The position numbers were made by a program, and so were the translations under genes. DNA of 5,272 bases from the NCBI GenBank assembly GCA_905236315.1, contig CAJOPO010000011.1, forward strand, positions 1 to 5,272, given 5' to 3'. Under the pieces are notes generated by a model. That model ran no database searches and was not told the DNA's origin. It saw only the letters and a list, made by a program, of their open reading frames with translations. The stretch is from an uncultured Treponema sp. GTDB lineage: Bacteria; Spirochaetota; Spirochaetia; Treponematales; Treponemataceae. Positions 2,321-5,272 of the stretch are shown here, piece by piece (the stretch's first letter is position 1; each line of letters begins with the position of its first letter).

Positions 2321-2326
2321 GAGGTG
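2321..2326 (+). promoter_or_regulatory. Ribosome binding site that fixes the start of the CDP-alcohol transferase gene
   Basis: GAGGTG is a good match to the anti-Shine-Dalgarno sequence, and its GAGG ends 7 bases before the ATG at 2332. The GTG at 2326 is in frame but its first base is the last base of this site, leaving no room for initiation. The ATG at 2332 is therefore the better start, shortening the longest possible protein by two residues. Confidence 0.75.
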
Positions 2327-2331
2327 TGATT

Positions 2332-3111
2332 ATGAAATATACAGCGAAGTATTTCTCTGATAATATGCCAGTTGAAAAGAAGATAAAAGATTCAATATTA
2401 TGTAGATTATTATATAGGAAACTCTCATTTTACTTTTCAGCATTAGCTGCTAATGCCGGTGTCTCTGCTAATACCATCTCATATGTATCTACGATTGAAG
2501 GAATTATTGTATGCGTGATGTTCTTAATACCTAATTACTATTCAAATATACTGGGAGCTATACTAATTAATTTTTGGGTAATACTTGACTGTGTTGATGG
2601 AAATCTTGCTAGATCTGTAAAAAAACAACCTTTTGGTGAGTTTGCAGACGCAATTAGCAGCTATATTCTTGTTGCATTTATGTGTGTATGTATGGGATTT
2701 TCAATTTATAATTTAGGAGGTGTTTTTTTTAAGAAAGAAAACGTTTATATTATTTTAATAGGATCGTTTGCGTCTATTTCAAATACTTTAATGAGACTTA
2801 TTTATCAAAAATATAAAAATGTAGAAAAAAGACTTACTGAAGAGGGTATTATAAGAAAAGCAGAAGATTTTTCGGGCAATCATAACAAACTCAATAATAT
2901 AATAGTGCGCATAGATTCTGAACTCGGTTTAGGAGCACTTTGTTGCCTTATTCTTCTTATACTAGCAATTTTTCGTGCTTTAGATATAATGGTGTTATTT
3001 TATTTTATTTATTACGGATCAGCGTGTTTAATATCAACTTTGATTTATATTAAAAAATCAGTAAGAGCAACAAAAAAATATAAAATCTATAATATGGAGA
3101 ATAATAAATGA
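2332..3111 (+). CDS. CDP-alcohol phosphatidyltransferase family protein with variant active site
   Basis: Members of this integral-membrane family displace CMP from a CDP-alcohol, transferring the phospho-alcohol to a hydroxyl acceptor. Classical members make phospholipids; those inside glycan operons may decorate a polyprenol-linked sugar instead (inference). The protein has 259 residues from the ATG at 2332, a size normal for the family. The signature reads D86-x2-D89-G90-x2-A93-R94-x7-G102-x3-D106-x3-S110. The first three metal-binding aspartates, the Gly and the Arg are present, but the fourth aspartate, proposed as the catalytic base in structurally studied members, is serine (AGC codon at 2659-2661). 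Likely membrane spans lie near 51-67, 72-88, 109-128, 137-155, 200-216 and 219-240, with the signature on the cytoplasmic side of one span. ANTIS at 46-50 fits the 'PN-x-IT'-like segment before the first span. The gene overlaps the opine dehydrogenase gene by 4 bases (ATGA), implying translational coupling. Family membership is clear; substrate and even activity are uncertain. Confidence 0.88.
   Translation: MKYTAKYFSDNMPVEKKIKDSILCRLLYRKLSFYFSALAANAGVSANTISYVSTIEGIIVCVMFLIPNYYSNILGAILINFWVILDCVDGNLARSVKKQPFGEFADAISSYILVAFMCVCMGFSIYNLGGVFFKKENVYIILIGSFASISNTLMRLIYQKYKNVEKRLTEEGIIRKAEDFSGNHNKLNNIIVRIDSELGLGALCCLILLILAIFRALDIMVLFYFIYYGSACLISTLIYIKKSVRATKKYKIYNMENNK
3096..3099 (+). promoter_or_regulatory. 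Ribosome binding site for the opine dehydrogenase gene, inside the upstream gene
   Basis: GGAG lies 8 bases before the ATG at 3108, within the last codons of the CDP-alcohol transferase gene. Together with the ATGA stop/start overlap it supports coupled translation of the two products. Confidence 0.7.
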
Positions 3112-4226
3112 AGATAACAGTTGTTGGAGCAGGCAACATCGGTTTGGCGATAACTGCATATATAGCAATCAAGCACAAAGCGGATGTGACATTATTTACA
3201 AAAAAATCGATTGATTCTATCTATTTAAATATGGATGAACAAAAAATATGTGAACAAACAAAAAGATTTTCGATAACCGACAATCCTGAAATAGCTTTTT
3301 TAAATGCGGATATAATATTTGTAACTTATCCATCATTTTTAAGAAAAAAATTTATAGAAAGAAATCAACAATATATTAGGACTGATGCATATTTTGGTTT
3401 CGTTCCCGGATATGGTGGAGCTGAATATACTTGTGTAGATATGATTGATCGAGGTGTGAATATTTTTGGTTTTCAAAGGGTTCCTTATATTGCAAGAATA
3501 TCAAAAGATAAAGCTGAAAAAACTGTCAGTATTCTTTCTAGTAAAAAGGAGCTTTTTGTAGCCGCTATTCCAAAAGAAAAAGCAGAAGAAATTTCGGAGA
3601 TCGTAGAAAAGCTTTTAGACATTCCTGTTAGAAAACTGAAAGAATATCTTTCTGTTACGCTGGCACTATCTAATCCGCTTTTACATATTTCCGGTTTATA
3701 TAACATTTTTAAAGACTATAAAAGAGGAAAAAAGTATGACCATCCACTAAAACTTTACGAAGAATGGAATGATAAAACTTCAAAACTTCTATTTATATAT
3801 GACGGAGAATTGCAGGAAATTTGTCAAAATTTTAGATCTTTTGATATGAACAAAGTTATTCCTCTTCCTATCTACTATGATTCCCCAACTCCAGAGGTGA
3901 TGACAAAAAAATTAAAAAGCATAGAATCTTTTAAAGTTGTGATGGCTCCATTGAAAAAAACTCATGATGGATATTTTTTAGATCTTTCGTCGAGAATGTT
4001 TGCGGAAGATTATCCGTTTGGTATATGTATTATAAAAGATTTTGCTAGAATACTTAATATAAAAACTCCAACGGTAGATATCCTTTTAGATTTTTATAGA
4101 AATTTATCAGGGCATGTATATTTCAATACAGACGGATCATATACAAGTGAAATTAAAGATACAGGAGTTCCAGGTATTAATGGTCTAAATACTAAAGATA
4201 AGTTGATTGATTTTTATAATAGGTGA
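3108..4226 (+). CDS. NAD/NADP octopine/nopaline (opine) dehydrogenase family protein
   Basis: Opine dehydrogenases catalyse NAD(P)H-dependent reductive condensation of an amino group with a 2-oxo acid, giving an N-(1-carboxyalkyl) secondary amine; the reverse oxidation also occurs. The 372-residue length fits the family. An N-terminal Rossmann domain opens with KITVVGAGNIG (dinucleotide-binding G7, G9, G12); strand 2 ends LFTKKS at 29-34, where no acidic residue fixes NADH preference. PGYGG at 100-104 and QRVPYIARI at 123-131 match conserved positions near the nucleotide and substrate. The C-terminal helical domain has SNPLLH at 188-193, with His193 in the place of the family's catalytic His, then SPTPEVM at 259-265 and AEDYPFG at 299-305. 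The cytosolic enzyme lies between a CDP-alcohol transferase gene (4-base overlap) and a PLP enzyme gene (4-base gap), so a role in making a surface-glycan substituent is more likely than catabolism of opines. A metallophore-type opine synthase is less likely because no nicotianamine-synthase-like gene or transporter is visible. Amine and oxo-acid substrates are unknown. Confidence 0.87.
   Translation: MKITVVGAGNIGLAITAYIAIKHKADVTLFTKKSIDSIYLNMDEQKICEQTKRFSITDNPEIAFLNADIIFVTYPSFLRKKFIERNQQYIRTDAYFGFVPGYGGAEYTCVDMIDRGVNIFGFQRVPYIARISKDKAEKTVSILSSKKELFVAAIPKEKAEEISEIVEKLLDIPVRKLKEYLSVTLALSNPLLHISGLYNIFKDYKRGKKYDHPLKLYEEWNDKTSKLLFIYDGELQEICQNFRSFDMNKVIPLPIYYDSPTPEVMTKKLKSIESFKVVMAPLKKTHDGYFLDLSSRMFAEDYPFGICIIKDFARILNIKTPTVDILLDFYRNLSGHVYFNTDGSYTSEIKDTGVPGINGLNTKDKLIDFYNR
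4221..4226 (+). promoter_or_regulatory. Ribosome binding site overlapping the preceding stop codon
   Basis: AGGTGA contains the TGA stop of the opine dehydrogenase gene and serves as Shine-Dalgarno site for the ATG at 4231; its AGG ends 7 bases before that ATG. The arrangement suggests that ribosomes ending on one gene reinitiate on the next, keeping the two enzymes in similar amounts. Confidence 0.7.
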
Positions 4227-4230
4227 AAAT

Positions 4231-5272
4231 ATGTATTATTTGAATCCTGATATTGAGAATTTATGCCGTATTTTTGATCAAAATGAGCGTAAAGATTATT
4301 TACGTCTTGATTTGAATGAAAATCCCGGAGGATTACCAACAGAATTTATCCAATCTGTACTTAGAGATATTACTCCGCAGTTTGTAGCACAATATCCAGA
4401 AACATTTCATTTCACAAAAGTGTTGGCGGATTTTCTCGGAACTGATAGTTCGCATCTTTGTCTTGTAAATGGTTCAGCAGAGGGCATTCGTTATATAATT
4501 CAAGCTTTTACAAGTAAAGGTGGTCGTATTGTTGGTGTTGTTCCATCTTATTTTATGTTTCAGATTTATTCAAAAATGTATGGAAGAAATTTTGTGCAAG
4601 TTTTTTACAACGAAGATTTAAGCCTAGATATTAATAAGATAATAGATAAAATGACAAATGATACGCAATTACTTCTCTTACTTAATCCAAATAATCCGAT
4701 GGGAAATGTATATAGCGATGAAGAATTTGAATGTATTTTTAAAGTAGCGAAAGAAAGACAGATCACTATTCTTATTGATGAAGCTTATTTCTATTTCTAC
4801 CCAAAAACATTTATCAAATATGCACTAGAAAGAAAGCATATTTTAGTTACTCGTACTTTTTCTAAGCTGTTTTCTATGGCCGCTTGTCGACTGGGTTATG
4901 TAGTCGGTTGGCCTGAAGGTATAAAGATGATTCAAAAACTATGTACGCCTCATAATATAAACGCATTTGCTATAAAGTTTGCTGAAGCGGCTTTAACCAC
5001 TCCAGGTATGCTAAACCAGCTAATTTCTAATTTTATTGAAGGCCGCCGCTACCTAATTAATTGGCTGGATGAAAATGAATATCAACATAAAGGTGAAGCG
5101 GGTAACTTTATCTTTATCAATCCAAAAACGGATGCTAAAAATATTGTAAATCGCATGAAATTCGAGAAGAAAATTTTGATCAAATCTTATCAAAATATAG
5201 GAAAGTTTGGAGATTGCTTGCGCGTATCGATTGGTGAGAAAGAATATATGGAAATATTTACTAAAGCATTAA
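4231..5272 (+). CDS. HisC/CobD-like PLP-dependent aminotransferase, class I/II (3' end cut by window)
   Basis: This is a fold-type I PLP enzyme of the histidinol-phosphate aminotransferase/threonine-phosphate decarboxylase group. The frame gives 347 residues without a stop; such proteins are about 350-370 long and the C-terminal motif is already passed, so few residues are missing. Visible motifs: LNENPGG at 28-34 (N-terminal substrate segment), NGSAEG at 80-85 (cofactor phosphate loop), PSYFMF at 105-110, NPNNPMG at 152-158 (Asn155 contacts PLP), DEAY at 183-186 (Asp183 pairs with the pyridine nitrogen), TFSK at 209-212 (Lys212 forms the Schiff base), ACRLGY at 218-223 (Arg220, phosphate binding) and LRVSIG at 330-335 (Arg331, usual carboxylate contact). 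All catalytic residues are intact. No other histidine or cobamide gene is present, so a glycan-precursor role fits better: transamination to an amino compound, or CobD-like decarboxylation of a phospho-amino acid to an amino-alcohol phosphate. The sequence does not decide between them. Translation probably couples to the opine dehydrogenase gene 4 bases upstream. Confidence 0.88.
   Translation, partial: MYYLNPDIENLCRIFDQNERKDYLRLDLNENPGGLPTEFIQSVLRDITPQFVAQYPETFHFTKVLADFLGTDSSHLCLVNGSAEGIRYIIQAFTSKGGRIVGVVPSYFMFQIYSKMYGRNFVQVFYNEDLSLDINKIIDKMTNDTQLLLLLNPNNPMGNVYSDEEFECIFKVAKERQITILIDEAYFYFYPKTFIKYALERKHILVTRTFSKLFSMAACRLGYVVGWPEGIKMIQKLCTPHNINAFAIKFAEAALTTPGMLNQLISNFIEGRRYLINWLDENEYQHKGEAGNFIFINPKTDAKNIVNRMKFEKKILIKSYQNIGKFGDCLRVSIGEKEYMEIFTKAL

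Follow-up and report, generated by a model that had tools for sequence, protein, structure and literature searches.

A putative route to opine-type phospho-headgroups on surface glycans, read from an opine dehydrogenase and PLP enzyme gene pair in an uncultured Treponema

A 5,272-nucleotide stretch of DNA from an uncultured Treponema sp. (NCBI GenBank assembly GCA_905236315.1, contig CAJOPO010000011.1, forward strand; hereafter the window) encodes an opine dehydrogenase (ODH) followed directly by a pyridoxal 5'-phosphate (PLP) enzyme. The reading preferred here, to which a probability of roughly 0.6 is given on comparative sequence evidence, is that the two enzymes would make an N-(1-carboxyalkyl)amino-alcohol phosphate, with pyruvate and serinol phosphate as the likeliest precursors. 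Activation by CTP and transfer, through a phosphodiester bond, to a surface glycan on its lipid carrier would follow. Gene content, the conservation of catalytic residues and a recurrent neighbourhood are the direct observations behind this reading. An opine-type phospho-headgroup was also the core idea of a first-pass annotation made from the letters of the window; that idea appears well supported by comparative genomics, whereas the three-gene module drawn there, which included a CDP-alcohol transferase-like gene, is not. The features of the window are the following.

1 to 942, + strand: CDP-glycerol glycerophosphotransferase-like gene, partial, open at its 5' end (PF04464, 187 bits, E 6.6e-55).
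955 to 2310, + strand: oligosaccharide repeat-unit polymerase (TIGR04370, 134.4 bits, cut-off 40).
2326 to 3111, + strand: CDP-alcohol phosphotransferase-like membrane enzyme, with a GTG start and an in-frame ATG at 2332.
2587 to 2661, + strand: motif DxxDGxxAR-x7-GxxxDxxxS of that enzyme, the fourth Asp replaced by Ser.
3108 to 4226, + strand: ODH family enzyme (PF02317), its start overlapping the preceding stop by 4 bases (3108-3111).
4231 to 5271, + strand: HisC-like PLP enzyme (Aminotran_1_2) with ATG at 4231, open at the contig end; the protein, taken without its last few residues, falls below the equivalog cut-offs of both HisC (TIGR01141, 223.6 bits against 276.55) and CobD (TIGR01140, 137.2 against 290.55).

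Five genes, all on one strand, fill the window, and 4 bases (4227-4230) separate the ODH and PLP genes. Open reading frames and models agree with the first-pass reading of a CDP-alcohol transferase-like gene, an ODH gene and a HisC-like PLP gene, the first two overlapping by 4 bases and the last two 4 bases apart, behind the polymerase and glycerophosphotransferase genes. The window spans the whole of contig C11, from an assembly of 546 contigs that totals 2.57 Mb and is 84.5% complete; the PLP gene is therefore truncated at the contig end, and anything 3' of it lies out of view. No cytidylyltransferase was found in the window and no LicD gene among its open reading frames; three LicD genes lie on other contigs of the genome.

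Comparative evidence comes from the relatives of the window ODH (clade A). A scan of genome contigs returned at least eight true relatives, and the counts given for them refer to the matches listed; two further matches (L013, L014), short and covering the nucleotide-binding end only, were dropped. The eight, most of them metagenome-assembled, are 46-62% identical to the window ODH, come from Butyrivibrio, Clostridiales and other Bacillota, Clostridium, Methanobrevibacter and Adlercreutzia, and form one group with it in the tree (support 97/93). Pairing of ODH and PLP enzyme exceeds chance, recurring within 2 kb in all eight (the PLP gene being cut by the contig end in L006). A cytidylyltransferase-type gene lies within 5 kb in 8/8 loci, of the PF01467 type in seven and NTP_transferase/LicC-like in two (L010, L011), with both types in one. 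Furthermore, six of the eight genomes carry a fusion of GCT and Gfo/Idh domains (437-484 aa), in one full-length copy each and always at the ODH locus. LicD genes accompany six relatives; a PF04464 gene stands just upstream in place of LicD in L007, and no transferase gene was found in L012 by the seeds used. The nucleotidyltransferase that the first-pass annotation had placed outside the window is thus represented, as a family, at every listed ODH-PLP locus and, as a LicC-like/PLP fusion, at 12 of 19 more distant ones; its use of CTP we infer from family membership. The contig of L011, binned as Methanobrevibacter (an archaeon), holds GCT-Gfo, LicD, PLP, ODH, LicC-like and PF04464-like genes; its ODH groups with a Clostridium ODH at 100/100, which suggests inter-domain transfer if the binning is right.

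The 19 more distant ODH loci were fetched from surveys of 394, 397 and 391 genomes (thresholds 1e-40, 1e-60 and 1e-60, centre genomes included). At 12 of them (L047-L050, L068-L070, L073, L074, L077, L078, L082) a LicC-like/PLP fusion of about 605 aa with a CobD-like PLP domain lies near the ODH, as the next gene in 10 and never more than 1.6 kb away. Of the 19 loci, 13 have a class I PLP partner within 2 kb and 13 a LicD gene. L072 has LicC-like, LicD, ODH and PLP genes, unfused; L076 has GCT-Gfo, LicD and an ornithine-cyclodeaminase-like gene; and LicD adjoins the ODH in L071. In L081 (positions 4411-10684, genome G1109), a same-strand run comprises LicD, ODH, phosphonopyruvate decarboxylase (442.7, cut-off 312.5), 2-aminoethylphosphonate (AEP) aminotransferase (457.1, cut-off 360.8), a fusion of phosphoenolpyruvate (PEP) mutase and GCT (413.8, cut-off 319.55) and a LicC-like gene. 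This complete AEP operon containing an ODH predicts N-carboxyalkyl-2-aminoethylphosphonate as its product. The same ODH family and nucleotidyltransferases therefore meet three routes to a phosphorylated or phosphonylated amine: HisC-like PLP enzyme with GCT, LicC-like/PLP fusion, and AEP operon.

On balance, it is favoured here, by a small degree, that these ODHs represent a general, previously unrecognised tailoring of surface headgroups, in which a keto acid would be joined to the free amine of phospho-amines activated by CTP, in bacteria and at least one archaeon. Which phospho-amine is capped (serinol phosphate, phosphoethanolamine or AEP) would vary with the partner genes, and a positively charged surface group would become an anionic or zwitterionic one of the opine type. 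If true, this would offer a way in which the chemically known N-carboxyalkyl phospho-amine substituents could arise, and surface decoration in an archaeon and several bacteria would gain a step that switches charge. Directly testable predictions follow from the gene sets found for the three routes.

The same PLP family also occurs without an ODH. In the 397-genome survey, PLP relatives at E 1e-70 or better were found in 22 genomes at 23 places, of which the 20 besides L005 were examined (G414 and G684:C21 being left out). ODH is absent from all 20 of these loci. In 17/20 the immediate same-strand neighbour of the PLP gene is either GCT-Gfo (6) or LicC-like (11); GCT-Gfo is one gene away in L106, an IspD-type gene two genes off in L109, and L118 has a piece of PEP mutase-GCT together with a weak LicC-like match on the opposite strand. 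LicD is present in 10/20. Relatives of the PLP enzyme thus stand beside cytidylyltransferase-type genes in loci that have no ODH, so opine formation appears to be an optional modification added to an older pathway for aminated headgroups, with PLP enzyme and nucleotidyltransferase as the core and ODH as an addition.

The window ODH has the marks of its family. Its C-terminal alpha-helical domain passes the Pfam cut-off (PF02317, 67.4 bits against 30), and its predicted fold matches octopine dehydrogenase and CENDH, with which it shares the PF02317 domain and the His, Arg and Asp positions at about 21% identity. His193 (codon 3684..3686, + strand) aligns with octopine dehydrogenase His212, and Arg296 and Asp301 (3993..4010, + strand) with Arg324 and Asp329; all three are invariant in 29/29 ODHs, and we take H193/D301 to be the catalytic pair and R296 the arginine that binds the oxo acid. 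The two known enzymes differ at Arg124 (codon 3477..3479, + strand), which is Arg in 28/29 and Lys in 1/29 of the ODHs and aligns with Thr in octopine dehydrogenase and Ser in CENDH; it is a candidate phosphate contact. Opine dehydrogenases are familiar from invertebrate metabolism, crown-gall opines and metallophores, and to our knowledge neither octopine dehydrogenase nor CENDH is linked to glycans. A metallophore opine of the staphylopine type was considered and rejected, the PF10100 match reaching only E 0.11 and the neighbours being glycan genes. No relatives of the ODH were found in the viral contigs searched.

The pathway can be proposed in four steps. First, the PLP enzyme would transaminate dihydroxyacetone phosphate (DHAP) to serinol phosphate. 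Second, judging by family, predicted fold and conserved catalytic residues, the ODH would reductively couple the amine with a 2-oxo acid. Third, as the gene neighbourhoods suggest, the CDP derivative would arise, before or after the second step, through an enzyme of GCT or LicC type whose gene probably lies in another part of the genome. Fourth, and weakest, the phospho-opine would pass to the glycan through a LicD-type enzyme in the relatives and here perhaps through the CDP-alcohol transferase-like or PF04464 enzyme.

Serinol phosphate is our best guess for the amine, with phosphoethanolamine second. The substrate of HisC is an acetol phosphate, and the hisC model (218-253 bits) outscores CobD (137-169) in 7/7 HisC-like PLPs tested (window, five clade-A, L072); the order is reversed in 4/4 fused PLPs (CobD 167-183, hisC 139-149), all PLPs lying below the equivalog cut-offs. 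In addition, the GCT domain of L007 is closest to glycerol-3-phosphate cytidylyltransferase. Elsewhere in the window genome, contig C210 carries a HisC over cut-off (295.6), C215 a HisC/CobD-like gene flanked by apparent cobalamin genes and C487 a LicC-like/PLP fusion, which together mark the window PLP as a distinct enzyme; a role in histidine or cobalamin biosynthesis was set aside, as the other copies look fit for both. Another origin of the amine, by oxidation of CDP-glycerol to a ketone on the Gfo/Idh domain followed by transamination, is suggested by the GCT-Gfo fusion beside the PLP gene but was rejected as the general route. What is presumably the EKP lysine motif of that domain has lost its lysine in 13 of the 15 GCT-Gfo fusions (L005, L007-L009, L011, L012, L019, L076, L106-L108, L110, L111, L114, L119), being changed to ESP, EAP, ETP or DSP with a degraded glycine-rich motif; it is intact only in L019 (contig C57 of the window genome) and L108. 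The GCT domain of these fusions appears intact by eye.

Phosphoethanolamine as the amine is a possible, distinctly less probable version of the same logic, in which the PLP enzyme would act as a phosphoserine decarboxylase and yield N-carboxyethyl-phosphoethanolamine, as in a known O-polysaccharide substituent. That substituent, named from Proteus in the first-pass annotation as a structural precedent, we take to be R-Cet-EtnP. The precedent is published: R-Cet-EtnP, N-[(R)-1-carboxyethyl]ethanolamine phosphate, appears as a polysaccharide substituent in a figure legend (K. pneumoniae capsular and P. mirabilis O-polysaccharides) and in the glossary of PMC9630907. It belongs to the product class predicted here, a phospho-opine on a surface polysaccharide, but those parts of the paper give no genes for it. 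The chemistry has a counterpart as well, since passages of PMC11800397 describe C. jejuni Cj1436, which turns serine phosphate into ethanolamine phosphate, beside Cj1437, which turns DHAP into (S)-serinol phosphate. These capsule-locus enzymes are likened here by function to the proposed PLP step, in yielding amino-alcohol phosphates from phosphoserine or DHAP; according to the same passages their amine is amide-linked to glucuronate, whereas here the predicted linkage is a phosphodiester, reached through CTP activation and N-carboxyalkylation. Because 11 of the 17 adjacent pairs join a HisC-like PLP to a LicC-like enzyme, pairing with GCT is weak evidence for serinol phosphate. It is the model scores, with hisC above CobD in every HisC-like PLP tested and the reverse in the fused ones tested, and the closeness of the L007 GCT domain to glycerol-3-phosphate enzymes that argue for serinol phosphate over phosphoethanolamine.

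The CDP-alcohol transferase-like gene is the weakest link of the module. Its protein matches the family by predicted fold and PF01066 score, and the first three aspartates are present of what we take to be the four-aspartate CDP-alcohol phosphotransferase motif DxxDGxxAR...GxxxDxxxD. The fourth is Ser110 in 23/23 aligned members (23 chosen from 459 homologues), and this invariant serine may indicate altered catalysis. No such gene was found by BLAST seed or motif in the eight listed related loci (L006 being readable for about 0.7 kb past the ODH), and none was seen across the 27 further ODH loci in total, the contig of the genome's second ODH and the 20 PLP loci, some on short contigs; as an obligate partner it was therefore discarded. 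The best 120 ODH and best 120 CDP-alcohol homologues have one apparent contig in common, that of the window, compared with seven for the ODH and PLP lists (by proxy matching). Among the loci examined, the three-gene arrangement is seen only in the window. The first-pass annotation had named lack of conservation of the trio in related genomes as its first refutation, and, taken literally, that is the outcome: the ODH-PLP pair is found in 8/8 listed relatives and the CDP-alcohol transferase in none. Its choice of the membrane enzyme as the attaching partner is weakened by this and by the missing aspartate.

That this enzyme instead places the phospho-opine, or a plain amino alcohol, on a membrane lipid, giving an unusual phospholipid headgroup and not a glycan decoration, is unlikely. 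Its predicted fold also matches phosphatidylinositol (PI)-phosphate synthases and choline phosphotransferases, and the nearest NCBIfam model is archaetidylinositol phosphate synthase, at a score far below cut-off. The polymerase and glycerophosphotransferase genes immediately upstream and the LicD genes of the relatives speak for a glycan; so do the subfamily's two loci (in 2/373 genomes), which lack ODH and PLP, have a GCT-like gene at most two genes away and lie, by reading of their open reading frames, among polysaccharide genes.

Still more doubtful is the view that ODH and PLP enzyme serve different products and merely share a capsule locus. PLP homologues far outnumber those of ODH (4379 against 245 at E 1e-3, the former including distant HisC-like proteins), and the 20 further PLP loci do without ODH; the converse fails, in that clade-A ODHs have a PLP neighbour throughout and most distant ODHs a class I PLP partner. 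An amino-phosphonate product, N-carboxyalkyl-AEP, is very improbable for the window, since PEP mutase exceeds its cut-off (31.5) in 0/8 listed clade-A genomes (5/8 give weak matches of at most 26 bits) and the PEP mutase of the window genome has a PLP fusion of its own beside it, against which stand the L081 operon and the presence of that PEP mutase and LicC-like/PLP fusion on another contig. With PEP mutase over cut-off in only 1/12 fused-type genomes as well (below or absent in 11/12), most members of either group are unlikely to make a phosphonate. The amino-phosphonate option of the first-pass annotation is accordingly rejected for the window's clade and retained elsewhere in the family, at L081.

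Besides the unusual membrane enzyme and the LicC-like pairings, several observations weigh against the serinol phosphate pathway preferred here. The nucleotidyltransferases are imperfect matches: the GCT domain scores 124.1 bits (cut-off 165.4), the LicC-like proteins pass no curated model's cut-off, L006 has only a small PF01467-like gene, and that of L005 scores slightly higher with an adenylyltransferase model (83.6) than with GCT (74.8), both below cut-off. Octopine dehydrogenase Gln118 corresponds to Tyr102 in the window ODH, a position not conserved across the 29 ODHs. At three of the 19 distant loci (L075, L079, L080) none of the sought partner genes was found, and their ODHs retain Arg124. 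At the survey thresholds ODH is rare (5/394, 8/397 and 8/391 genomes), and identity to the window PLP is 59-77% in 4/20 of the further PLP loci and 39-43% in 16/20. Finally, the GCT-Gfo gene of the window genome lies on a separate contig (C57) and is 44% identical, and contig C11 is possibly mis-binned, being short, with its nearest ODHs in Bacillota. At 29.6% G+C it falls below 12 stretches compared from other contigs of the genome, which range over 31-40%; its three-base composition is closer to L007 than to any of eight own-genome contigs, yet inside the range of AT-rich contigs, so that base composition did not decide. The window ODH is the sole such ODH found among 394 genomes of its class, which suggests horizontal transfer or a mis-binned contig. 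If C11 is mis-binned, the genome-level arguments fall.

Two established systems lie close to the proposed pathway. LicC/LicD phosphocholine decoration likewise brings a CTP-activated phospho-headgroup to a surface glycan, with LicD at 6/8 and LicC-like genes at 2/8 listed loci; in the present proposal, unlike there, a PLP enzyme would supply the headgroup amine and an ODH would N-carboxyalkylate it, and the window has no LicD. In the Pnt pathway, AEP is activated by PntC, and T. denticola Tde1415 joins a cytidylyltransferase and a PLP aminotransferase as two domains, with detectable AEP transaminase activity in the latter (passages of PMC6697681); the same fusion type lies near 12/19 distant ODHs. 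The difference is that the main text of PMC6697681 contains neither 'opine' nor 'dehydrogenase', and that the listed window-clade genomes lack PEP mutase over cut-off. In open-licence literature, an opine dehydrogenase in a CTP-activated headgroup pathway was not found in the available text of the matches listed, and opine dehydrogenase was not co-mentioned with aminoethylphosphonate. Papers naming opine dehydrogenase together with polysaccharide and gene cluster deal with other subjects, judging by their titles and the opening of their abstracts, and no work joined carboxyethyl, Proteus mirabilis, opine and gene cluster.

Two other loci of the window genome bear on these families. On contig C487 (L029), a PEP mutase with an N-terminal cytidylyltransferase-like domain adjoins the 611-aa LicC-like/PLP fusion, and these genes are read, from their families, as a separate phosphonate headgroup route within the genome. 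The second ODH (L020, contig C66), 36% identical, stands between ornithine-cyclodeaminase-like and YidC-like genes, with a PF04464 gene upstream.

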